Below, piece after piece: positions 30,814-58,562 of a DNA stretch of 64,000 nt; the stretch's first letter is position 1; each line of letters begins with the position of its first letter. Both the position numbers and the translations under genes were made by a program. The stretch is from Aurantiacibacter sp. D1-12 (lineage in GTDB: Bacteria; Pseudomonadota; Alphaproteobacteria; Sphingomonadales; Sphingomonadaceae). The stretch lies in assembly GCF_028858515.1 (NCBI RefSeq), contig NZ_JAPJZJ010000001.1:186001-250000 (forward strand). Direction: 5' to 3'. Below the pieces are notes generated by a model. It was not told the origin of the DNA. It saw nothing but the letters and a program-made list of their open reading frames with translations, and did no database searches.

Positions 30814-32340
30814 TTACAAACACGCCTCAAGATAAGCCTGGTCGAAACCGAACTGGCGGGCCTTTTCGAGCGTATAGGGGCGCAGACCGGACGAGCGGTG
30901 CTCGCCGATGATCTTGCCGTCATCACCTTCATCGAGGTATTCGAAGGTGAACAGTTCCTGCGTCACGATCACGTCGCCTTCCATGCCGATCACTTCAGTG
31001 ACGTTGGTCGTACGACGCGAACCATCACGCAGACGCTTCACCTGCACGATCAGATCAACCGATTCAGCGATCTGGCGCGAAATGGCTTCCTTCGGGATCT
31101 TGATGTCGCCCATCAGGATCATGTTTTCCATACGGCCCAGGCACTCACGCGGTGAGTTGGCGTGGAGCGTACACATGGAGCCATCGTGGCCGGTGTTCAT
31201 GGCGGCGAGAAGGTCGAAACACTCAGCGCCACGAATCTCACCCAGGATGATGCGGTCAGGACGCATACGCAGGGCGTTCTTCACAAGGTCGCCGATGGTA
31301 ATGGCACCCTGGCCTTCAAGGTTCGGTGGACGGGTTTCCAGCGGCAGCCAGTGTGGCTGCTGCAGGCGAAGCTCGGCGGCGTCTTCAATCGTCAGCACGC
31401 GCTCGCCCGGATCGATCATCTTCGACAGGGCGTTGAGCATGGTGGTTTTACCCGAACCCGTACCGCCCGAGATAACCACGTTCATCCGGCACGCACCGGC
31501 GATTTTCAGCGCGGTACACATCTTCTCGTCCATCGAGCCCCAACCTTTAAGGTTGTCGAGCGTGATGGGCTTTTCGGAGAACTTACGAATAGAGATCGCG
31601 GTGCCGCGCAGCGACAGCGGGGGAACGATGACGTTCACACGTGAGCCGTCTTTCAAACGGGCGTCGGCCAGCGGCGTGGTCTGGTCGACGCGGCGGCCGA
31701 CCTGGTTCACAATGCGCTGGGCAATCTGGAAAAGGTGAGCCTCGTCGCGGAACTTGATCGGTGCGACAACCAGCTTGCCGCCTTTTTCGATATAGGTCTG
31801 GTCGGGACCGTTGACCATGATATCGGACACGTCGGGGTCGCCGAGCAGCTCTTCGAGCGGACCGAAGCCGAGCAGCTCGTCGATCAGCACCTTTTCCAGC
31901 GCGAATTGCTCGCGGCGGTTCAGGGTGACCTTCAGCTCGGCGAGCACTTCCATGATGATCGGGCGGAATTCCTCGCTCAGCTCTTCCTTGGAGAGCGTTG
32001 CAGCCGCTTCCGGATCGACACGTTCGAGCAGGCGCGGCAGCACCTGTTCCTTGATCTTGTGGACACTGGCTTCAAACCCGCCAACTTCCTGCTTTTCGTG
32101 CACTGCATCGGAACGCTGTTGCAGGCGATCAAGCGCATCTGCGTTCTTGTCGGCGCCTGGGCTTGCGACAGGGGTGCCTTCGGCAGGGACGGGCGGGAAC
32201 TGCTCGCCGCCGGCGTCTGCAGCCTTGTCGGCTTCAGGAGCGGCACCGCCGCCACCACGCATAGGCTTGGCCACGCCGAAACTCGGGCGTGCGCCCTTGT
32301 TCATGCCGCCAGGTCCGTTCTTGCGTCCGAAAGCGCTCAT
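30814..32340 (-). CDS. cpaF: CpaF family pilus/type II secretion ATPase
   Basis: A 508-residue secretion ATPase of the Tad/Flp pilus type. A disordered Gly/Pro/Ala-rich N-terminus (1-75) precedes the N-terminal domain. The core has GGTGSGKTTMLNAL (Walker A), EDAAELRL, an RMRPDRIILGEIRGAE Walker B region and GHDGSMCTLHANS with the histidine box. It normally works with CpaE, CpaB, CpaC and TadBC, but none of those genes is adjacent, so cpaF is separated from the rest of the pilus locus within this window. The gene-free 184 bases upstream (32341-32524) show no further feature. Confidence 0.95.
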   Translation of the reverse strand: MSAFGRKNGPGGMNKGARPSFGVAKPMRGGGGAAPEADKAADAGGEQFPPVPAEGTPVASPGADKNADALDRLQQRSDAVHEKQEVGGFEASVHKIKEQVLPRLLERVDPEAAATLSKEELSEEFRPIIMEVLAELKVTLNRREQFALEKVLIDELLGFGPLEELLGDPDVSDIMVNGPDQTYIEKGGKLVVAPIKFRDEAHLFQIAQRIVNQVGRRVDQTTPLADARLKDGSRVNVIVPPLSLRGTAISIRKFSEKPITLDNLKGWGSMDEKMCTALKIAGACRMNVVISGGTGSGKTTMLNALSKMIDPGERVLTIEDAAELRLQQPHWLPLETRPPNLEGQGAITIGDLVKNALRMRPDRIILGEIRGAECFDLLAAMNTGHDGSMCTLHANSPRECLGRMENMILMGDIKIPKEAISRQIAESVDLIVQVKRLRDGSRRTTNVTEVIGMEGDVIVTQELFTFEYLDEGDDGKIIGEHRSSGLRPYTLEKARQFGFDQAYLEACL

Positions 32341-32524: not shown

Positions 32525-33196
32525 TCAGACCTTGGCTTCGATCAGCAACCGCGCCTGCAGCCATTTTCCCAGAAAAGGCAGGTGCGAAAGCGGGTGGAGA
32601 AAGCGCAGCACATTGTAATGGGCAATGTACCGCACCGTGATCCCCGCCTCGGGAAAACCCGCTGCCACCAGCATTGCAACCGTGTCCTTGGCATCGCGGA
32701 CCGCGATATGCTCCGGAAACTGTGCAATAATGCCCTTGTCTTTCGCCTGCTCAAGGAAGAACGCTGCGTTGGGAGTGTGGAGGTAGAGTTTTCCGCCGTC
32801 CGCTAGCGCACTCCGGATAGCGGCATAGATCGGCACCGCCTCTGCATCACTAACGTGCTCGGAAAAATCGAGCGTACAGGCGACATCGAACTGTTTCTGA
32901 TGCTCGCCGCAAAAGTCGACAACATCCGCGCAGTGGAAACGGTAGTTCTTCCGGCCCTCACGCTCTGCCCAGGCATTGGCGGAATCGATGAAATCGGCGG
33001 AGAAATCGACACCCTCATAGGTGCCTTCACGGTCCCCTAAAGCGTGCAGTAGCATGCCGTTACCACAGGCGAAATCGGCGAGTCGCGTGTCACTTGATAT
33101 GTCCATCATGCTGACAAGGTTTCGCACCCGATCGAGCGGTTTGCGGTTGTAGCGCTCGACATAGTCGCCGCTGTGCAAGGACAGGCTATCAGTCAT
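32525..33196 (-). CDS. class I SAM-dependent methyltransferase, last gene of the glycan cassette
   Basis: A 223-residue protein. The AdoMet-binding motif is LADFACGNGMLLHALG (about 39-54), the acidic loop at VDFSADFI, and motif IV-like VACTLDFSEHV. The C-terminus (SHLPFLGKWLQARLLIEAKV) could lie on the membrane. It resembles methyltransferases found in polysaccharide and glycolipid loci, so it could cap a sugar or lipid made by its neighbours. Its start overlaps the stop of the GT4 fusion gene by 8 bases. The acceptor is unknown. Confidence 0.85.
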   Translation of the reverse strand: MTDSLSLHSGDYVERYNRKPLDRVRNLVSMMDISSDTRLADFACGNGMLLHALGDREGTYEGVDFSADFIDSANAWAEREGRKNYRFHCADVVDFCGEHQKQFDVACTLDFSEHVSDAEAVPIYAAIRSALADGGKLYLHTPNAAFFLEQAKDKGIIAQFPEHIAVRDAKDTVAMLVAAGFPEAGITVRYIAHYNVLRFLHPLSHLPFLGKWLQARLLIEAKV

Positions 33197-35135
33197 GGAC
33201 GGCGACCTTGGAAGTAGAATGGAATTTGAGCTCGACGAATGGCGCCAGCAAGGCAGTCCCCAGAAATTGTGAGATGCGATTGATGGCTACTGCAAGGAAG
33301 GCGATCTGCGGTGCGCTTCCCAGAGTCTCTGCCATCAGCGCGCCTAGGGCCTCGCTGATGCCGAGCCCGCCGGGGGCAATCGAAGACGCAGAGCCTGCAA
33401 TGGCTGCCAACACATAGGGGAACGTGGCTGAGAGCGGCAGAATGGCCTTGAGGACGGCAAACGCCAGCCACAGCCTCACCGAAGCAAGGGCTAGACCCAA
33501 GATTCGCAACAACAATGCAAGCCAGGCGCTCAGCCATCCGCCTACCGCAGTGAGATAAGCAAACGCTCCCAGCGAGACTGCTCCGCCCCCAAGGAGCAGA
33601 GGCCATGCAGCGGCGGGAACAGCGGTAAGCATGAACAGGCCCGCAGCAAGGCACGCGAGGGCAATCCACATCATGGCGGAACTTATGATCAGCGCAGCGC
33701 CTCTGGAGACCGAGCATCCGGCTGAAATCAGGGCCGCAGACCGCACAATCGCTCCGCCCGGGATGGGTAAGGCTTCGGCCATCTGCGCATGAACAGAAGT
33801 GCGCATGCCTTGGACAAAGCTCATGCGAACCTGCGCGATGCGCGCGAGGACCATGAGTGAAAGAGCGCTGTAGGCAACCAGCACAAGGCCCATCGGTACG
33901 GTGAGCGCAAGCAACGCTAGGAAATCGAGATCACTTACGTCGAGGCTAAGCGAGACGAATGACCATACTGATCCGCTGATGAACAGTAGCACGGCCAGTA
34001 CCAGAAGCAGCTTTTTGAACGAACCGGTGCTGGAAGGGCTTTGCGCAGGTGCGGGTGCAGGACTGCTATCAGACTCAACATAGGCCGCATACGTCTCGCG
34101 TGCGACGCGCTGCCAGCTGAATTGCTCCCGCGCGCGGTTTGTCGCAGTTTCGGTGAAATCACGCCGTTCCGCGTCGGACCAATTGGCAACTCTCTCAATG
34201 GCTGAAGCCCACGCGGCGGCATCTCCGCTTGGCAGCAGCAGCCCCGTTTCCCCGTCGAGAACCGCATCAGTCAGACCGCCATGATTGGCTGCAAGAACAA
34301 CACCGCCTGCTGCTGCAGCCTCCGGCGCGACAAGGCCGAAGCCCTCGTACTCGCCATTCCCGGCATCGATGTTGGGCACCACGACGCACAAAGCGTTAGC
34401 ATAGCGCTGCGCGAGTTCTCGCTGATCGACCGAGCCGAGGAATCGGACGCGTGGATTGTCCAGCGCAGCACGCTCGCTCTCGTCCCAGGCGGTGCCTGCT
34501 ACGTCGAGCGTGATGTCTTGCGGCAAGAGTGGGAGGGCATTCTCAATGAACCACGCGCAGCCTTTGCGGCGCACCAGCCTACCCGCGAATAGGATCGTTC
34601 GGGATCCCGAGGTTGCGGTTTGTGGCGCGGGTAGGTCGCTCGCGAGCGGAACGATTTCGATGTGTTGCCAGCCAGTCTCCTGCGTGACAGCCCTGGTGGC
34701 GTGCGAATTGGCGATGATCGTGGCGCGCCTGTTCAGCAGCCGCGCGCCAAGACGCAGATAGGCGCCATAGAGCGTCCCTGTGATGCCGCCACGACGGTGA
34801 AACGCCACATCAGTACCATGTGCGGACAGGATCAGTCGCGTTTCGGGCCAGAGCCACGCAACCAGTCCGAGAGGCCAAATCGCCATGTCGGCCAGATGAA
34901 GGACGTGCGGGTTGTTTACACGCTGCAAGCTCGCGGCGAGGAAAGTGAAGGGGAAAAACAGCAGCGCCAGCAGACCGGGCGGCATACCGTTTGCATGCCC
35001 GGGCAGGGCGATGACCTGCACCTCGCCATGCTCGTCCAGAGCCTCGGTCAGGCGCAGGCAATAGGTCTCCATGCCGCCGGTGGCTGGGGCCCATTTGCGG
35101 GTGACAAACATGATTGGGGCACTACGTTCACTCAT
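33189..35135 (-). CDS. GT4 glycosyltransferase fused to an MprF/UPF0104-type membrane domain
   Basis: A 648-residue two-domain protein. Residues 1-365 are a GT-B glycosyltransferase of family 4 type: N-terminal loop PATGGMETYCLRL, a middle SAHGTDVAF, ILFAGRLVRRKG and the donor-site E-x7-E in EGFGLVAPE. A Ser/Pro/Ala linker (about 370-390) leads to a membrane part with about seven helices. That part has EALPIPGGAIVR and APGGLGISEALGALM, the PGG signatures of the lysylphosphatidylglycerol-synthase/flippase family. It overlaps its neighbours at both ends. Sugar transfer on the inner face coupled to lipid handling is inferred. Confidence 0.85.
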   Translation of the reverse strand: MSERSAPIMFVTRKWAPATGGMETYCLRLTEALDEHGEVQVIALPGHANGMPPGLLALLFFPFTFLAASLQRVNNPHVLHLADMAIWPLGLVAWLWPETRLILSAHGTDVAFHRRGGITGTLYGAYLRLGARLLNRRATIIANSHATRAVTQETGWQHIEIVPLASDLPAPQTATSGSRTILFAGRLVRRKGCAWFIENALPLLPQDITLDVAGTAWDESERAALDNPRVRFLGSVDQRELAQRYANALCVVVPNIDAGNGEYEGFGLVAPEAAAAGGVVLAANHGGLTDAVLDGETGLLLPSGDAAAWASAIERVANWSDAERRDFTETATNRAREQFSWQRVARETYAAYVESDSSPAPAPAQSPSSTGSFKKLLLVLAVLLFISGSVWSFVSLSLDVSDLDFLALLALTVPMGLVLVAYSALSLMVLARIAQVRMSFVQGMRTSVHAQMAEALPIPGGAIVRSAALISAGCSVSRGAALIISSAMMWIALACLAAGLFMLTAVPAAAWPLLLGGGAVSLGAFAYLTAVGGWLSAWLALLLRILGLALASVRLWLAFAVLKAILPLSATFPYVLAAIAGSASSIAPGGLGISEALGALMAETLGSAPQIAFLAVAINRISQFLGTALLAPFVELKFHSTSKVAVHD

Positions 35136-36793
35136 CAGAACTGCACCCAGATTGGGCCTTCGGGAGGGGATGCAGAAGGTGGTGCGATGTTGTCACCCCA
35201 GATGATCCGACTATCTGCTTGCCAGCCCTCGAGTACATAGGTGCCGCGACCTAGTTGTACGGTATCACCAGCGCGAACGAGCTCACCATCAATCGACATG
35301 CCTGCACCTGTGACGGTGAATGCTCCAGGGACCAGGTTTTTGTAGATGACCGTCGATCCGGCAGGCACGTGGCGTCCGGCGATCCAGAGTGGTCCCCAGA
35401 AGCGCACATAGTTGCCTTGCAGCGCGGCACGGTCTTCAGGCGCAAGCCACACGTCTTCGCGATCCGTGAGCACAGACGTCAGGATAAAGTTGTTTTCGAT
35501 CACCAGCGGAACAGGCTCTGCCTGCATGGCGGGTTCGATCATTGTCAGACCGGCATTATCGTGGATCATCACTGTCAGGGGCGACATGAAGGGGTTGGCT
35601 TTGCCTCGCGTACCCAGGAAGCCGGGGAAGTCGAAGTAGCGCACTTCGTCGCCGAAAGTGGCGATCGTCACCTCGTGTAGCGCACGTTGCTGATCGAGCG
35701 GGCTAGGCTCTTCTGTGATCAGCGTCACAACGGTGCTTGCGCAGAGGATTGCTGCGATCAGCGGTGCGGAAAGGCGTGTTAGGGCTGCACTCATCACCGG
35801 CCCACAGGCGGCCAGCACGGGTGCGAGCATGAAGACGAAGTAGTAGGGTGCTGTATTGACGTAGATAATCGGCGTCAGCGCCACCGTGAACAGTCCTCCC
35901 AGCGCGAGCTTCTCGGCCGGCCGCCTTTCTGCTTTGGCAATGACGAAGGGGAAGGCTGCCACCACCAGCGTGACGAGCGGATTTGTTGTCGCCGCACGCA
36001 AAATGCGGCTCCAGTTGGGATTGTCGAAGAAGGTGAAGACAGCGCCAGCGGCGCGGCTGGTGGTCGCAGTGTCCTCTGCTCCGGCAGGGCCTGCAATCCA
36101 CTGTGAAAGCAGCGCAAACAGGGCTGCGAATGCCGCAAGCGCCACAGCCCCGATGACCGCAAGTCTCAGAGGTGTCTGGCTGGTGAACCCATCATCTGCC
36201 CAGCGTAGGTAGGCGACCCCGGCAAAAGCAGGCGCGTAAAGCACAGCCTTGATCGAAATAAGCGGAAGCAGCGCGACGAGCAGTCCGGCGCCGACAATCA
36301 CCTTTGCATCCAGCCTTGCGCTCAAGAACAGCCAGAGTAGACCCATAAGCGCAGCGGTGAGTGGCGGGTCGTAGCGGAAGGATGCACCGTGCTGGAACAC
36401 GTAGCTGAATGAAATGTAGGCGAGGCCGCAAAGCAATGCGGGGGTGCGCTCCGCAAAGCGCGCCGCAATGCCGACTATCGCTGCCAGGGCCACCATTTCG
36501 CAAGCGAACATGAACAGGCGGATCACGATGATGTGGTCAATCGGGCTGCCGGGCAGGGCGGTCACCCAGCTGTAGGCGAAGGCGTGGAAGCGTTGCAGGA
36601 CCTGCGGCAGAGTGCCTGCATGGAGTTGAACGATATGGTTGTAATGCCCGAACTCGTCCCAGTTGATCGATCGGGTAAAGACTTGCGCAAATTGCAGTGC
36701 CGCCACCGCGACGATGGCCAGCTTCACCCACGTCGCGGCTGCGATGCGGGGAGTGGCTGTGTCAGCAGGCATGGTGGGGGCAGCGTTGGTCAC
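35135..36793 (-). CDS. GT-C type membrane glycosyltransferase
   Basis: A 552-residue protein with about ten helices (20-385) and a soluble C-terminal domain (about 400-552), beta-rich toward the end. The first periplasmic loop has NWDEFGHYNHI, an acidic motif placed like the catalytic Asp/Glu of PMT/ArnT-type GT-C enzymes. Such enzymes use polyprenyl-phosphate sugars as donors, matching the GT2 gene upstream. The start is GTG 36793 in a GTGA overlap with the GT2 stop; an ATG seven codons later is also possible. It shares one base (TGATG) with the fusion gene downstream. Confidence 0.8.
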   Translation of the reverse strand: MTNAAPTMPADTATPRIAAATWVKLAIVAVAALQFAQVFTRSINWDEFGHYNHIVQLHAGTLPQVLQRFHAFAYSWVTALPGSPIDHIIVIRLFMFACEMVALAAIVGIAARFAERTPALLCGLAYISFSYVFQHGASFRYDPPLTAALMGLLWLFLSARLDAKVIVGAGLLVALLPLISIKAVLYAPAFAGVAYLRWADDGFTSQTPLRLAVIGAVALAAFAALFALLSQWIAGPAGAEDTATTSRAAGAVFTFFDNPNWSRILRAATTNPLVTLVVAAFPFVIAKAERRPAEKLALGGLFTVALTPIIYVNTAPYYFVFMLAPVLAACGPVMSAALTRLSAPLIAAILCASTVVTLITEEPSPLDQQRALHEVTIATFGDEVRYFDFPGFLGTRGKANPFMSPLTVMIHDNAGLTMIEPAMQAEPVPLVIENNFILTSVLTDREDVWLAPEDRAALQGNYVRFWGPLWIAGRHVPAGSTVIYKNLVPGAFTVTGAGMSIDGELVRAGDTVQLGRGTYVLEGWQADSRIIWGDNIAPPSASPPEGPIWVQF

Positions 36794-37791
36794 GCAGCGT
36801 CCTGTCGCTTGCGCTCCTGCTTGGCGGGGGCATCGGACTGCAGCTCGGCAATGCGATCCTCTAGCGCTCGGGTGCGGCGCAGGTTTTCCTCGATCAGCTT
36901 GCGGTTCGCGGCAACAAGGTCTGCCACCATGCCCATGATCGCGACGAGCGTTCCGAGCACTAGCAATGCGCCGCCGATGACCAGCGACTGGATATGTCCC
37001 GTCCCGTCACCCTGGGCGAAGAACCACAGGAACCGCAGGATCGGCAGCAGTCCGATAAAGGCGATGAGTGATCCCGTGCCGACAAAGGCGCGCAGTGGCT
37101 TGTGAGCGGTGAAGGCGCGGATCATCGTGATGCCGGTCTGCGAGATGAAGCGCGGGATCGACTTGAACAGCCGGCTGGGGCGGACAGCGGCGTGCGTGCG
37201 CACGGGCACCGTCAGGATCGCCATGCGCTTGCGCCCGGCCTGGATCAGCATATCGGTGGTGTAGGAAAATTCGGTGGTGATATTGATCCGCTGCGCTGCA
37301 TCGCGGCTGATCGCACGGAAACCGCTGACGGCATCGGTCACCTTCGTCCCGGCGAGCGATTGTACGACGCCTGATCCAATGCGCTGCATCAGGCGTTTGG
37401 GAACGGAGAAATGGGCGTTATCGGCAACACCGCGATCGCCGATCACGATATCTGCGCGGCCTTCGACTACCGGCGTCACCAGGGCAGCGATATCCGCGCC
37501 TTCATACTGCCCGTCCCCATCGGTGTTGACGATGATGTCTGCGCCCTCGGCCAGCGCCTTGTCGATGCCCGAGCGAAAAGCTGCGGCAAGGCCGCGGTTG
37601 CGGCGATGTGTCTCCACGTGATGCGCGCCATGGCGGCGGGCGACGTTCGCGGTATCATCGCTGCTGCCATCGTCGATCACGAGGAATTCGATCACATCCA
37701 CGCCATCGATCCGGCGCGGCAGGCGCGCCAGCGTTTCAGGCAGGCTCTCCGCCTCGTTAAGGCAGGGGATCTGGATGATCAGTTTAACCAC
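36790..37791 (-). CDS. GT2 polyprenyl-phosphate glycosyltransferase (DPM1/GtrB-like)
   Basis: A 333-residue protein. Its cytoplasmic GT2 domain (1-225) has IIQIPCLNEAESLPETL, FLVIDDGSSDDT, NRGLAAAFRSGID and the DxD-like NTDGDGQY, then SGFRAISRDAA. Two C-terminal membrane helices (about 228-250 and 262-285) and a coiled tail (AANRKLIEENLRRTRALEDRI) follow. This is the layout of enzymes that load a sugar onto undecaprenyl phosphate. The start is GTG 37791 with GGAG 5 bases upstream; TTG 37806 is less likely. It is first of the coupled four-gene cassette; 37792-37953 holds its promoter region. Confidence 0.88.
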   Translation of the reverse strand: MVKLIIQIPCLNEAESLPETLARLPRRIDGVDVIEFLVIDDGSSDDTANVARRHGAHHVETHRRNRGLAAAFRSGIDKALAEGADIIVNTDGDGQYEGADIAALVTPVVEGRADIVIGDRGVADNAHFSVPKRLMQRIGSGVVQSLAGTKVTDAVSGFRAISRDAAQRINITTEFSYTTDMLIQAGRKRMAILTVPVRTHAAVRPSRLFKSIPRFISQTGITMIRAFTAHKPLRAFVGTGSLIAFIGLLPILRFLWFFAQGDGTGHIQSLVIGGALLVLGTLVAIMGMVADLVAANRKLIEENLRRTRALEDRIAELQSDAPAKQERKRQDAA

Positions 37792-37953
37792 GCACACTCC
37801 GCGCAAATCGGCCTTTGAGTGGGCCAGGATAGGCTTCTGTTAAGCATGACCGTTTAAGGCTTCGTAAACTTCGACAGCAGGCGTTAAAGCGATTGCGGCA
37901 AGGGCGCTGCGCCCCTAAGCGACCCCGACACACCGCGTGAGGGGCTTTCACAC

Positions 37954-38856
37954 ATGCAACAATCAGATCGGGCAGGACTGCTCTTCGCGCTGACGGGTTT
38001 TGTCCTGCTGTCGGTTGGTGATGTGATAGTGAAGGGCATCTCGGACGAGTGGACACCCACCGCACTGGGGGCATTCCGGTATTGCCTCGGCGCGGCGGTG
38101 CTCTCGGCCTTGTTGCTCGCGAAAGAAGGGACTGCGCCCTTCCTGAACGTACCAAAGCCCGGGGTGCAGGCTCTGCGCGGGCTGGGCGTTGGCGTGGCGA
38201 CGCTCACGTTCTTTGGCAGTGTATGGCTGATGCCGCTGGCCGATGCCGTGGCGATTACCTTCACCCAGCCGATGATCACCGCGATCCTGGCATCGGTGTT
38301 CCTCGGAGAAAAACTACGCCCGAGCACTGTGGTTGCTACGGTAGTAGCCTTCATCGGGGTGTTAATCGTACTGCGACCCAATTTTGCGGAGATCGGCTGG
38401 GCAGCGTTGCTTCCTGTCGTCTGCGCATTCGGCATGGCTACGCTGATGACTGCCAACCGAGCAGCACGGGGAGCGGGGAGCGCGCTGGCGGCACAAGTTT
38501 ACGTTGCGATCGGAGCGTCGGTCGTCCTCGTGATCGGCGCGGCGATTGGCGATGCGAGCGGTGTTCAAGGTGCCGAGTGGTACTGGCCCGAATGGCATGT
38601 GTTGGCGCGCACAGCGGTGGTCGCGTTTACTGCCACAACGGCGCATTGGCTGATCTTCAAGGGTACGCAGCGGGCGGGTGCGGCGACGGTTGCTCCGATG
38701 ACATACGTGCAGATCCTCGTCGCGGCATCGCTTGCATGGATATTCTTTGGCGAGGCGCCCGATGCCATCGCGATGGGCGGTGCTTCGCTGATTATCGGCG
38801 CCGGGCTGTGGCTCTGGTACCTCGGTCGCAAGCGCGACATTCTCGCGGAGCACTAG
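37954..38856 (+). CDS. EamA/DMT family transporter
   Basis: A 300-residue protein with ten predicted helices in two EamA domains (about 5-138 and 150-288). Segments such as FRYCLGAAVLSALLLA, LPLADAVAITFTQPMITAILASVFLGEKL and TYVQILVAASLAWIFFGEAPDA are typical. It is divergent from the glycan cassette and its stop overlaps that of the next minus-strand gene (CTAG, 38853-38856). The substrate is unknown; linkage to the sugar genes hints at a lipid-linked or nucleotide-sugar-related solute but does not prove it. Confidence 0.9.
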   Translation: MQQSDRAGLLFALTGFVLLSVGDVIVKGISDEWTPTALGAFRYCLGAAVLSALLLAKEGTAPFLNVPKPGVQALRGLGVGVATLTFFGSVWLMPLADAVAITFTQPMITAILASVFLGEKLRPSTVVATVVAFIGVLIVLRPNFAEIGWAALLPVVCAFGMATLMTANRAARGAGSALAAQVYVAIGASVVLVIGAAIGDASGVQGAEWYWPEWHVLARTAVVAFTATTAHWLIFKGTQRAGAATVAPMTYVQILVAASLAWIFFGEAPDAIAMGGASLIIGAGLWLWYLGRKRDILAEH

Positions 38857-40343
38857 TCGCGGCGGATCCACGCGGTGAGCGTGCGGTTGTGCATTTCGAC
38901 CGAGAGGCGTTCCTCGTAACTTTCGGCGAGTGCCGCTTCGACCAGCGCCGTCGCCTCGGCATTCTGCAGTGTCATCGGGCGGCTGGCAGTGACGATAGCT
39001 CCCGGCTCACCCGCCAGAATGCGCGCGACTTCCTCTACCTGATCGACTTCGAGCGCATTGACCTCAAGCGCATTGTTTAGGTGATCAGGATAGACATAGC
39101 GCGTCGGCACGCAGCTGCCTGTCATGCGGTAGAGCGCGGTTGGGCCATCCCACAGCCACAGGCAATTGTCTTCGGCATCAACGTGCGGCGCGATCACTTC
39201 TGCCAGAGCATCGGCGGCGGAGCGCTCTTCCAGAGAAACCTCGCGCCTGTCGGGGAGGGACAGGAGCGCGAAGAAAGCGGCGACGATCAGTAGGCCGGGG
39301 AAAGCCTTGGCAGGACTGCGGCTGTCGAGCAGGGGCAGCGCCACCAGCGCGCACGGTGCGGCAAGCGCGGCATAGTAGTAGAGGTAGACCGTACCGGGCA
39401 GCAGAACGCTCGCGAGCGTGGATGCGGCCCAGCCGACGAAGAACAGCCAGTCGCGGAACGGTTCCGGACGGCGCATGCGGAAGGCAGCGTAGGTGCCGGT
39501 AATCACCAGCAGAGCCAGTGGCGCAACGCCCAGCGCGTGCTCGCTCGCCCAGCGGCCTTGCGGGGCGGGCATGCGGTCGAAGAAGGAGAGGAAGTTGGCG
39601 AACATGAAGGCGTTGAACTCGCCCGCAGCCGCGTAGAATGCCGCCACCGCCAGCGTGGGCAGCAGGCCAAGGAAAGCGAACAGCGCGCCCAGCGTGGCAA
39701 TGCGCGGTAGCCTGGCTCCGCGCTTCCACTCCACCCACAGCGCGTAGAGGCCGAAGAACATGCATTGCGGCACCACCGTGTATTTGACCTGCAGCGCAAT
39801 GCCACCCAACAGCATCGCCCACATGGCGCGGCGCGTGAATTGGGGGTGGTCGGAATCTATCAGCAGCATGACCATGCCGAGCATGAGCGGCAGGAAGAAT
39901 ACCTCGCTTTGCCCCGAATAGCTGGCGTAGGCACACAGCAGCATGGTGGAGATCGCCGCCGCCATCCATGCCGACAGAGGGCCGACAAGGCGGCGCGATA
40001 GCTTGTAGACCATCACCGCTCCGGCAAAAGCGAACAGCGTTGCAACGATCTGGTAGGCGAGGGGGCCGGGACCGAACAGCGCGTGGGCCACGCCGAAGAT
40101 AGCGAACAGGCCAAACGGTTTGCGGTCCCACCAGTCGACAAAGGGCAATTCGCCCTCGCTCATGCGCCAGCCGATGAAGCTGTAGAGCTGCTCGTCGAAA
40201 TCGGCGACGGGATCGCCAAACCAGATGCCGCGGGTGACGAGCACCAGCATCGCGAGCACGGCAAGCGGCAGCGCATCGCCGCGCATCAGCGCCGCAAAGC
40301 CCCCGGTCTTGTCCGTATCTGGCATGGCTGCCACTGTCGTCAT
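38853..40343 (-). CDS. glycosyltransferase family 39-like (PMT_2) membrane protein
   Basis: A 496-residue protein with about ten helices. The first extracytoplasmic loop has VADFDEQLYSF, and WWDRKPFGLFAIFG follows at about 69-82, like the HxKPP motif of PMT/ArnT enzymes. A soluble tail begins at about 365. It should transfer a sugar from a polyprenyl-phosphate carrier on the periplasmic side. It has no close sequence similarity to the other GT-C gene that I can see, but both could use the GT2 product. It stands alone, divergent from the HNH gene. Confidence 0.85.
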   Translation of the reverse strand: MTTVAAMPDTDKTGGFAALMRGDALPLAVLAMLVLVTRGIWFGDPVADFDEQLYSFIGWRMSEGELPFVDWWDRKPFGLFAIFGVAHALFGPGPLAYQIVATLFAFAGAVMVYKLSRRLVGPLSAWMAAAISTMLLCAYASYSGQSEVFFLPLMLGMVMLLIDSDHPQFTRRAMWAMLLGGIALQVKYTVVPQCMFFGLYALWVEWKRGARLPRIATLGALFAFLGLLPTLAVAAFYAAAGEFNAFMFANFLSFFDRMPAPQGRWASEHALGVAPLALLVITGTYAAFRMRRPEPFRDWLFFVGWAASTLASVLLPGTVYLYYYAALAAPCALVALPLLDSRSPAKAFPGLLIVAAFFALLSLPDRREVSLEERSAADALAEVIAPHVDAEDNCLWLWDGPTALYRMTGSCVPTRYVYPDHLNNALEVNALEVDQVEEVARILAGEPGAIVTASRPMTLQNAEATALVEAALAESYEERLSVEMHNRTLTAWIRRD

Positions 40344-54235: not shown

Positions 54236-55882
54236 TCAGTCGTCGATTTCGCAGCCGTATTCTTCGGCAGCTGCCTCGAACTCTTCACGATCTGCTTCTC
54301 GGCGTGCCTCGCGGGCATCTTCATCGAGGTATTCGCCCGGGTGATCGGGGCGGGCAGCTTCCATCAGCGGCTCGGTATCACCCTGTTCGAATAGGTCGAA
54401 ACGCGCGCGTGTGACGCAGGCACGGGTGCTGTTGCCCGACAGGTATTCGGCCCCGACAACACGTGCTTCTGCCACGCGGTTTTCCATCAGGAGATGATAG
54501 ACCAGCGTACTCCGCACGCCGGCGTCAAACGCGGCATAGCGGAAGGCCTGTTCCAGCGCTGCGCGCGCACCTTCTGGCGGCTCCTCCAAATTCTCGTCGA
54601 AGAGAAATGTGAGGTAGTAGCGATACAGTGGATAGGCGTGATCGTTCTCCATCAGGTTGGCATCGATGAAGCGATCACGCGCTACTTCCAGTTGCGATGG
54701 ATCGGTGAACGACCGGCGAAATGCTGCTTCGGCATAGTAGATCGCCGCCTCTGTCGATTCAGGATCAATCGCAAGCACGCGCTGCGCCAGTTCTTCGACT
54801 GCATCGTAATTGCGGACATCAAGCTCGGCCTCTGTCGCGGCGAGCAATACTGCGGCACTGTTCGGGTAACTCTCGACAAGACGGCGCGCTTCACGAACCC
54901 ACCGTTGTGCCTCGTCCTCGTCCACACCGGCCTTGGAATTGATCATGAGCCGCATGCGGGCCTCTTCGGCCTCGTTCAGGCGATGTATCTCTACCGGCGG
55001 GTCGGCTTCAACCACGTAGGGCACGCGCAATGTGCGCGCTGCGCCCTGACGAAACTCTTCCAGTTCCTCGTGCAGCACGTCCAGATCGCCAAAGGCCATT
55101 TCGGCGGCTTCCATCGGCGGGTGCCCGGCAACAATGGCCTGGATATAGGTTGCCATCTGGCCGCGGCGATCGGGGTTGAGATCTAGGTGGCTCGCAATCA
55201 ACCAGCCGTGGGCGTAGGTGCGCCCGGTGGTGTAACGATCCCGCTCGCGTGGCGGATCAAAGGTCGCTTCCAGATCGATCGGAATGGTGGCGAGTGACGC
55301 GCTACGCCAAGTCGGCACGTCACCGATTACGAAGCCGTCTTCCTCGAACCGGAGATTGGAATAGAGCTCTGCATAGCCCTCGCTGTACCACAGCGGGTAG
55401 GGCGCATCGCGATGCTGGAACATGAAGTAGTGGACATACTCATGGAACAGAATGCCACGCGGTTCGAGCAACATTTCCGAATCCACATCCTGCTGGCGGC
55501 TGCGCCCGCGGCGGACATTGAATTGGCGTGGCACGAAGGCAACGGCGCCTGATGCGCGAGGAATAAAGAAACCGCCGATACCGGCGTTACGATTACCGAC
55601 AGCAAGCACTGCCATGTCGCTTGTCTGGCCATAGCGGAAGACGGTGACCTTGGTGGACTCCGGCAATGCTTCGTCCGAACCCACGCCGGTCATGAAGCGC
55701 AGGACTTCGTCCAGCCGCTCAAGATCCTGCACAAACTCGCGTGTGTTCTGCTCGGTATCTTCCGAATAGACGATGAAGTGGGCGCTCTCTGCCCGATACC
55801 AGTCGCGCGCCGCCGCCGTTTGTGCGGTCAGCCCGATTGAAAGGATGATGACGGCAAAACCGCCGAATATACGCTTAAACAT
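54236..55882 (-). CDS. secreted HExxH metallopeptidase-like protein with TPR-like tail
   Basis: A 548-residue protein starting at ATG 55882, signal peptide about 1-26. A gluzincin-like domain has HEYVH (HExxH, about 160) and E in YSEGYAELYSNL about 20 residues on, the third-ligand position. The remaining roughly 250 residues are helical repeats resembling TPRs (DEDEAQRWVREARRLVESYPNSAAVLLAATEAE, cut here at RRLVESYPNSA). An acidic tail ends in GCEIDD. The open frame upstream of 55882 is antisense to metH. Likely a periplasmic zinc peptidase of DUF1570 type; the activity is inferred. Confidence 0.85.
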   Translation of the reverse strand: MFKRIFGGFAVIILSIGLTAQTAAARDWYRAESAHFIVYSEDTEQNTREFVQDLERLDEVLRFMTGVGSDEALPESTKVTVFRYGQTSDMAVLAVGNRNAGIGGFFIPRASGAVAFVPRQFNVRRGRSRQQDVDSEMLLEPRGILFHEYVHYFMFQHRDAPYPLWYSEGYAELYSNLRFEEDGFVIGDVPTWRSASLATIPIDLEATFDPPRERDRYTTGRTYAHGWLIASHLDLNPDRRGQMATYIQAIVAGHPPMEAAEMAFGDLDVLHEELEEFRQGAARTLRVPYVVEADPPVEIHRLNEAEEARMRLMINSKAGVDEDEAQRWVREARRLVESYPNSAAVLLAATEAELDVRNYDAVEELAQRVLAIDPESTEAAIYYAEAAFRRSFTDPSQLEVARDRFIDANLMENDHAYPLYRYYLTFLFDENLEEPPEGARAALEQAFRYAAFDAGVRSTLVYHLLMENRVAEARVVGAEYLSGNSTRACVTRARFDLFEQGDTEPLMEAARPDHPGEYLDEDAREARREADREEFEAAAEEYGCEIDD

Positions 55883-55962
55883 TCCAGTGCCCGTCCCGTT
55901 AGCTTTCTGGTGAGATTCGCCACAATATTGATCCACCGCCGCGATGCAAGTGGGCGGAGTCC

Positions 55963-58562
<2,600 letters not shown>

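Follow-up and report, generated by a model that had tools for sequence, protein, structure and literature searches.

Gene content and borders of the locus

The window, i.e. the whole stretch of 64,000 nucleotides that was analysed, carries four minus-strand genes that span positions 32525-37791 in overlapping order. They encode a GT2 polyprenyl-phosphate glycosyltransferase of the ArnC/DPMS/AglJ-like kind (36790..37791), a GT-C glycosyltransferase whose predicted fold is nearest to ArnT (35135..36793), a fusion of a GT4 with an MprF-flippase-like membrane domain (33189-35135), and a SAM-dependent class I methyltransferase (32525..33196). The GT2 and GT-C genes overlap by 4 bases (GTGA), those of the GT-C and the fusion share 1 base (TGATG), and those of the fusion and the methyltransferase overlap by 8 bases; an alternative open TTG start for the GT2 lies at 37806. 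All four reading frames and their overlaps are as given by an earlier sequence-only reading of the window, and its proposal of translational coupling is further supported by recurrence of the GT2/GT-C arrangement. Among 77 surveyed loci, window included, each fetched for matching one cassette protein, 60 have recognisable GT2 and GT-C genes. In 57 of these 60, both genes share a strand and the GT-C gene is at most 400 bases away from that of the GT2; in 35 of the 57, a start codon creates the same 4-base overlap as in the window. A promoter and terminator scan gave no signal above shuffles.

The variable segment to which these genes belong is bordered on the left by EamA2, a DMT transporter gene (37954..38856, plus strand; EamA 1e-24), and on the right by a cpaF-type ATPase gene (30814..32340, minus strand; T2SSE 1.2e-60). 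A second PMT_2-family GT-C gene, GTC2 (38853..40343, minus strand; PMT_2 6.9e-09), flanks the segment. Third-position GC content is 0.77 for the GT2, 0.69 for the GT-C, 0.68 for the GT4 half of the fusion, 0.65 for its membrane half and 0.67 for the methyltransferase; except for the GT2, these values are slightly lower than those of eight other genes of the window (0.71-0.80). A recent foreign island is not supported by this difference in composition (0.65-0.77 versus 0.71-0.80).

The encoded proteins

The GT2 matches Pfam Glycos_transf_2 above the cut-off (6.7e-22, 78.6 bits). Its top NCBIfam match is AglJ (108 bits, below the cut-off of 325 for that family), and its PDB relatives include DPMS (5mlz, 1.9e-10) and ArnC (9hwj, 3.3e-09). 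Judged by homology, it is a polyprenyl-phosphate glycosyltransferase of the kind that belongs to Gtr-like three-component systems. For the GT-C, the PMT_2 score stays below the cut-off (23.5 versus 26.1 bits), and the assignment is supported by the predicted fold. The model (pLDDT 91.4), which includes a C-terminal beta region, is nearest to ArnT (5f15, Z 22.0, 421 residues aligned). Since no more than about 1.3 Z separates the entries of ArnT, PMT and OST, the fold of the GT-C does not show its function. Residues N44, W45, D46, E47, R140, D142 and K182 are invariant in 47 sequences, namely the window's and 46 of the 62 listed; with D46 and E47 as the invariant Asp-Glu pair, the protein combines a GT-C fold with conserved first-loop acidic residues.

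The third protein is encoded by a single open frame, in which a Pro/Ala/Ser-rich linker (residues 353-376) joins two halves. The GT4 half, of GT-B type (34065..35135, about residues 1-357), matches Glyco_trans_1_4 above the cut-off (1.9e-25, 90.2 bits) and carries an E(x7)E motif at 264. Stand-alone orthologues, 57-60% identical, directly follow the GT-C in four genomes of the genus. The membrane half (33189..34064), with about 8 transmembrane segments by hydropathy, was aligned and modelled alone; an alignment of the whole fusion (A1) had matched the GT4 half with PF03706 proteins that stand alone. Its model (pLDDT 87.8) matches six MprF entries with Z 14.7-17.3, the next, unrelated entry having Z 7.0. 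LPG_synthase_TM (PF03706) gave 29.0 and 30.8 bits on the fusion and did not reach the gathering score of 33.4. All 17 members of set A3, including the window's protein with its score below that threshold, match PF03706 at E <=0.001, and the homologue in locus L071 scores 44.2 bits. Pfam at E <=0.01 gave only GT4 domains and PF03706 on the fusion, with no DUF2156 aminoacyltransferase domain. The domain assignments of the sequence-only reading are thereby upheld, that of the MprF-type half by fold similarity to the six MprF entries.

In searches of 61, 397 and 385 genomes (overlapping sets), the sole match spanning both halves of the fusion was the window itself; the searches of 397 and 385 genomes scored at most three candidates per genome, and misses are possible. 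A genome scan with six peptide patterns returned three Croceicoccus loci, whose similarity is confined to the GT4 half, and a weak match in Propionibacterium. The titles and abstract openings of the literature considered contain no account of this locus or of a GT4-PF03706 fusion.

The methyltransferase matches Methyltransf_25 above the cut-off (2e-12, 48.1 bits). Among 91 loci read, strong orthologues (E <1e-90) occur only in genomes G208 and G289, 60-61% identical and each encoded directly after a stand-alone PF03706 gene; two further matches are weak (3.6e-5 and 1.8e-4).

An exchange site next to cpaF

The GT2-GTC pair is found in 25 of 40 genomes of the genus, where it is followed by variable cargo up to cpaF; the GT2 is present in 26, including one 73-residue remnant and one copy that is partial at its contig. 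EamA2 was called in 24 of the 25 cassette loci, GTC2 in 19, and cpaF in 21, the other four showing a contig end or an uncalled piece at that place. In the 15 cassette-less genomes, cpaF is present in 14 and GTC2 has a match at E <=1e-50 in 12. Fourteen cassette-less sites could be read: 12 are empty, one holds a scar and one is replaced, and at 10 empty sites EamA2 directly adjoins cpaF. The window's cassette is thus one allele of a variable locus rather than a fixed unit. The sequence-only reading had proposed a conserved four-gene pathway, which is rejected because relatives keep the GT2-GTC pair alone while the cargo is exchanged, and this genome is the only one in which the full set including the fusion was encountered. 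It had also named the scattering of the genes in relatives as an observation that would speak against it, and this is half of what is seen: the GT2-GTC core is syntenic, and the cargo is swapped. The serotype loci of gut bacteria vary in a similar fashion.

The cargo nevertheless follows a rule. Each complete cassette of the genus encodes exactly one further polytopic protein (21 of 21, versus a random mean of 8.5, P ~5e-5; unchanged in nine of 12 threshold settings). This protein is of PF03706 type in nine cassettes, Wzx-like in 10, and in the remaining two of a family, c32, that is Wzx-like by profile comparison. In the window's cassette, the membrane half of the fusion is the only polytopic cargo protein. 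Outside the genus, with EamA2 set aside, 14 of the 19 cassettes that were parsed obey the rule, and one genome (G135) carries the GT4 only. In the cassettes of G010, G277 and G095, only a GT2, a GT-C, a PF03706-like protein and a methyltransferase are encoded between EamA2 and cpaF, and no second cytosolic glycosyltransferase was called. G208 has the same four kinds of genes together with one of 288 aa downstream and one of 322 aa between EamA2 and the GT2.

The two genes of the shared pair behave differently. The GT-C varies fast and co-varies with the cargo (r 0.42) and not with the flanks (r ~0), whereas the GT2, the constant gene of the locus, tracks the chromosome (r 0.43 with CpaF identity) and not the cargo (r 0). 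The GT-C tree required 18 changes of crude cargo labels, versus 29.7 after shuffling, with as low a value in 0 of 200 shuffles; these labels, taken from the first recognised genes, are superseded by the cargo-similarity test.

A proposed pathway and its alternatives

From the gene set, predicted folds, synteny, exchange and co-variation, we infer substrates, a direction of flow, a flipping step and an acceptor, in a reading to which we give about even chances: the cassette, an exchangeable unit, would serve extracytoplasmic glycosylation in the manner of the Arn and Gtr pathways. The GT2 would load a sugar onto polyprenyl phosphate at the cytosolic face; the GT4 would add a second sugar and the methyltransferase would methylate the lipid-linked product, in either order. 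The MprF-flippase-like domain fused to the GT4 would then carry this product to the periplasmic face, where the ArnT-like GT-C would transfer it to an acceptor in the envelope, which is probably a molecule other than lipid A. In favour of this reading count the ArnC/DPMS-like GT2, the GT-C fold nearest to ArnT with its invariant Asp-Glu pair, the predicted MprF flippase fold of the membrane half, the rule of one polytopic protein, the opposite co-variation of GT2 and GT-C, and the small cassettes of G010, G277 and G095, in which the PF03706-like protein most simply flips the product of the GT2. The outline of the sequence-only reading, in which a lipid carrier is charged with sugar and the product is elaborated, flipped and transferred, is supported as an outline. 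Its remark that sphingomonads use glycosphingolipids in place of LPS, a possible target, is consistent with the genome of the organism, in which no LpxC match was found (the control gave matches in four of 14 genomes, among them those of E. coli and Caulobacter), so that lipid A is an unlikely acceptor.

Several points count against this Arn/Gtr-like reading. The rule of one polytopic protein has its exceptions outside the genus, the PF03706-like protein of G010, at just 21.5 bits, falls short of the cut-off of 33.4, the GT4 may act on a phospholipid, like GpgS, and two GtrA-family proteins encoded elsewhere in the genome could flip the product of the GT2. The last two lead to a fairly unlikely alternative, in which the GT4 and its fused flippase would make and flip a separate glycolipid tailored by the methyltransferase, to which the GT-C would add the GT2-donor sugar outside, the donor being flipped by a GtrA protein or by EamA2. 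Such acceptor building predicts what is observed, a GT-C that varies with the acceptor beside a constant GT2. PimA is among the PDB relatives of the GT4 half, which also matches the GlcN-PG synthase family NF053787 (43 bits, far below the cut-off of 480), and in gpgSDF a UPF0104 protein is the partner of a GT4 (PMC12713373, cited from an excerpt). Against it, most GT4-led cassettes among those listed have no PF03706 gene, and in G010, G277 and G095, where no second cytosolic glycosyltransferase was called, the PF03706-like protein would have nothing else to flip.

The Wzx-like proteins of 12 of the 21 genus cassettes (c32 included), which are accompanied by further glycosyltransferases in the annotated ones, and three Wzy_C proteins above the cut-off elsewhere in the genome point instead to an accessory O-unit or exopolysaccharide site, where the GT2-GTC pair would attach a side-chain sugar to a repeat unit that is assembled at another place and leaves the cell through Wzx/Wzy. 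As Pfam found no Wzx, Wzy or initiating phosphoglycosyltransferase in the window's cassette, this appears improbable. Glycosylation of a Flp/Tad pilus, suggested by cpaF bordering the site in the genus wherever the border was read, is highly improbable: empty sites have cpaF just as well, so that it looks like a border only.

A further, more novel reading is less likely than not. The locus would belong to an undescribed serotype-like class in bacteria apparently devoid of lipid A, where a constant GT2 starts polyprenyl-monophosphate-linked oligosaccharides, exchangeable enzymes elaborate them, a protein of one of two unrelated families (PF03706 or Wzx-like) exports them, and a glycan-matched GT-C transfers them whole. 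This would be a bacterial parallel of the archaeal AglJ-type lipid-monophosphate pathways, with enzyme and flippase here merged into one GT4-flippase. If true, nature provides a library in which GT-C, flippase and tailoring enzymes come as matched sets behind one constant GT2, and the specificity rules of GT-C enzymes, as well as those of PF03706 proteins as glycan-lipid flippases, become directly testable. The fusion, which binds an enzyme and a flippase into the same pathway, would make the question of flippase activity easier to test, and the locus would suggest how sphingomonads apparently without lipid A diversify their surface.

Comparison with known systems

In the Arn pathway (ArnC-ArnD-ArnE/F-ArnT), the tailoring enzyme is a deformylase and the flippase is ArnE/F. 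The cassette shares with it a GT2 predicted to act on polyprenyl phosphate, a cytosolic tailoring enzyme and an ArnT-like GT-C fold, and it has a candidate flippase, but its tailoring would rely on a methyltransferase and a GT4, its flippase would be of PF03706 type, and the lipid A target is probably absent. The flippase-like domain is predicted to have the fold of that of MprF, the bifunctional aminoacyl-PG synthase, without the aminoacyltransferase domain, and it is not GtrA by Pfam. For MprF, a scrambling assay has been used (PMC11980842). The enzyme part of AglD of Haloferax is GT2-type.

Three-component glycosylation systems have been described (PMC11127046, here and below from an excerpt), and the Gtr or O-antigen modification systems among them (GtrA-GtrB-Gtr*; GT136 systems) share with the cassette a GT2 donor synthase and a serotype-type GT-C; their set includes a flippase, a role for which the cassette has a candidate. 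They differ in using GtrA, or MATE in pentofuranose systems, instead of a PF03706 or Wzx-like flippase, and the cassettes have extra cytosolic glycosyltransferases and tailoring genes as well as a fixed chromosomal site. In gpgSDF of Pseudomonas aeruginosa, thought to make and flip a phosphatidylglycerol-based glycolipid, a GT4 is coupled with a UPF0104/PF03706 protein (PMC12713373); there, the genes are separate and include a deacetylase, which Pfam did not find among the four cassette proteins, whereas here GT4 and PF03706 form a single protein that accompanies a GT2, a GT-C and a methyltransferase. According to the respective excerpts, no direct demonstration of flippase activity existed for the transporters that PMC11127046 treats, and GpgF was still in the same position (PMC12713373). 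UPF0104 proteins have been proposed as flippases in glycosylation and adjoin PMT/STT3-type enzymes in archaeal neighbourhoods (PMC5898192, from an excerpt). AglD resembles the fusion in that a glycosyltransferase is likewise joined to a UPF0104 flippase-type domain (PMC5898192); unlike AglD, the protein described here carries a GT4, in a bacterial host and at an exchangeable locus.

Genes and predicted folds of the cassette

The sequence-only reading had placed four overlapping open frames on the minus strand at 32525-37791, and an ORF check bore out both the frames and their overlaps. Pfam and NCBIfam assign them to a GT2, a GT4 with a weak LPG_synthase_TM match, a weak GT-C (PMT_2), and a class I methyltransferase. 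Structure prediction backs both weak assignments. By fold, the GT-C model (47 sequences, pLDDT 91.4) lies nearest to ArnT (Z 22.0, 421 residues aligned), and PMT and OST entries score only slightly lower. Residues invariant across 47 sequences (the window's and 46 of the 62 listed GT-C genes) include Asn44-Trp45-Asp46-Glu47, Arg140, Asp142, and Lys182. The model of the membrane half, the C-terminal part of the GT4 fusion (17 sequences, pLDDT 87.8), aligns to six MprF entries with Z between 14.7 and 17.3; no unrelated entry scores above 7.0. The GT2 resembles ArnC, DPMS, and AglJ. Elsewhere in the window, an 802-residue open frame at 54236-56644 has zero Pfam matches at E up to 1e-4 and may not be a gene.

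Layout and distribution of the locus in the genus

GT-C is present in 25 of the 40 genus genomes and GT2 in 26, namely the same 25 (partial in G004) and, as a remnant, G007. Where the flanks are readable, the order is atpD-atpC, GTC2 (a second GT-C), one or two divergent EamA2 transporter genes, the GT2-GTC pair, the exchangeable cargo genes, and the ATPase gene cpaF. Among the 25 cassette loci, GTC2 was called in 19, EamA2 in 24, and cpaF in 21, the four others stopping at a contig end or containing an uncalled piece. A cpaF match was found in 14 of the 15 genomes lacking GT-C (the exception, G005, is 69% complete), and 12 of these 14 sites are empty, with zero genes of at least 60 codons called before cpaF, which adjoins EamA2 at 10 sites and GTC2 at two. 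In G061, three other genes (516, 71, and 461 aa; L203 6519-9736) replace the cassette in the EamA2-cpaF interval. In G007 (L211 5337-6551), GT2 residues 1-72 are joined in frame to CpaF residues 177-508, giving 404 residues; if the assembly is right, this is an apparent scar of a cassette deletion that also removed the N-terminal part of CpaF. On a FastTree flank-gene tree of 36 tips (cassette genomes G004, G006, and G024 were dropped for lack of sequence), explaining cassette presence and absence takes 8 changes; shuffled labels need 11.5 on average, and 7 of 500 shuffles reach a value as low. GTC2 itself (window 38853-40343), a moderately conserved flank gene of the PMT_2 family, is kept in 12 of the 15 cassette-less genomes and may be part of a separate, more constant glycosylation step.

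Different histories of GT2 and GT-C

The two halves of the locus have different histories, GT2 following the chromosomal flank and GT-C the cargo. Within the genus, pairwise identities have medians of 0.95 for AtpD, 0.91 for CpaF, 0.78 for GT2, 0.66 for EamA1, 0.65 for GTC2, 0.57 for EamA2 (paralogues are probably mixed within both EamA sets), and 0.42 for GT-C. Whereas GT2 identity tracks CpaF (0.43, p 0.003) and AtpD (0.44, p 0.017), GT-C identity is uncorrelated with CpaF (0.04), AtpD (0.02), or GTC2, EamA1, and EamA2 (-0.05 to 0.08). Across 21 cassettes, cargo similarity tracks GT-C (r 0.42, p 0.0005) and not GT2 (r 0.00). Partial tests on 19 genomes give 0.43 both for GT-C against cargo with CpaF held constant and for GT2 against CpaF with cargo held constant.

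The window itself is a direct case of such GT-C/cargo exchange. Its identities to G002 and G025, its relatives on the flank-gene tree, are 0.87 and 0.84 for EamA1, 0.82 and 0.81 for GTC2, and 0.88 and 0.89 for GT2, but only 0.34 and 0.37 for GT-C. In 60-column steps, DNA identity to both is 0.67-0.92 across GT2 until the last ~50 bases, and mostly 0.3-0.6 in GT-C, with single steps reaching 0.75. Compared with G010, from another branch, identity in GT-C is 0.6-0.8 starting ~50 bases in, and the GT-C tree joins the window and G010 at 100/100. Because the 3' tail of GT2 diverges from G010 too (0.58), the exact breakpoint is not fixed.

Cargo modules and the single polytopic protein

All 21 complete genus cassettes (81 cargo genes; G001, G004, G006, and G024 left out as incomplete) carry exactly one polytopic cargo protein, defined by at least six TM segments by hydropathy (random mean 8.5, P about 5e-5). 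Of 12 threshold settings, 9 leave this count unchanged, and the rest yield 20, 20, and 14. Assigned by Pfam for representatives and by BLAST for the remainder, nine are PF03706-type (the G010 match, at 21.5 bits, being below cut-off), ten Wzx-like, and two belong to group c32, which has no Pfam match and aligns by profile to the Wzx-like set with 95.7% probability over 379 columns. Outside the genus, with EamA2 set aside, a single such protein is found in 14 of the 19 cassettes parsed, including G402, whose parse is doubtful. The five that deviate are G135 (GT4 only), G280 (none), G289 (two), G277 (a PF03706-like protein with four predicted segments), and G205, whose inverted order makes the parse not meaningful. 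The cassettes L071 (G018) and L074 (G034), assigned by Pfam and by BLAST, respectively, hold an unusual tailoring set: a polysaccharide pyruvyl transferase, a methyltransferase, a PF03706 protein, and an asparagine-synthase-like protein.

A GT4 without the flippase half directly follows GT-C in G016, G019, G035, and G004 (57-60%) and also in other genera, and in G208 and G289 GT-C is followed by a stand-alone PF03706 gene and then a methyltransferase orthologue (60-61%). The window's allele combines both modules, as a GT4-PF03706 fusion plus methyltransferase. The fusion was met only in the window among 61, 397, and 385 genomes (overlapping sets; the larger two cover at most three candidates per genome, so misses are possible). 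One other genus (G151, L137; G214, L132; G302, L184) has GT2, PF03706, a 232-residue gene (in G214 an FkbM methyltransferase by Pfam), GT-C, and GT4, all separate, with neither cpaF nor atpC called within the stretches read.

Proposed mechanism and acceptor

The cassettes of G010, G277, and G095 consist solely of GT2, GT-C, a PF03706-like protein, and a methyltransferase; G208 has these four kinds and, in addition, two unassigned genes (288 and 322 residues). Since no second cytosolic GT was called in the first three, the PF03706-like protein would most simply flip the GT2 product there, and the methyltransferase would most simply tailor it. In the Arn pathway ArnE/F flip and ArnD tailors, and these are the roles proposed for the two proteins.

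With GT4 added, the window's cassette would probably add a second sugar. Alternatively, GT4 and its fused flippase may make a separate glycolipid acceptor, an arrangement with a precedent in gpgSDF, going by the available text of PMC12713373. The argument for a necessarily cassette-borne flippase is weakened by two GtrA-family proteins elsewhere in the genome (G000:C6:506159-506512, within a 391-codon open frame, and C7:190543-190896). Lipid A is an unlikely acceptor because LpxC was not found in the window's genome. A glycosphingolipid, an exopolysaccharide, or a protein are possible acceptors, and three Wzy_C proteins over cut-off in this genome bear on the exopolysaccharide.

Comparison with known systems

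The accessible parts of three sphingolipid studies (PMC13318209, PMC13028669, PMC6445935) name Sgt1/Sgt2-type enzymes and describe no locus of the cassette kind. UPF0104/PF03706, in the portion of PMC5898192 available, is proposed as a flippase in glycosylation pathways, among other cases as the C-terminal domain of AglD and in neighbourhoods that contain PMT/STT3-type enzymes. P. aeruginosa MprF scrambles several lipids in vitro, according to the available text of PMC11980842. Set against the three-component frame, as outlined in the accessible part of PMC11127046, the GT2 and GT-C fit, whereas the cassette differs in its flippase family and its added cytosolic enzymes.
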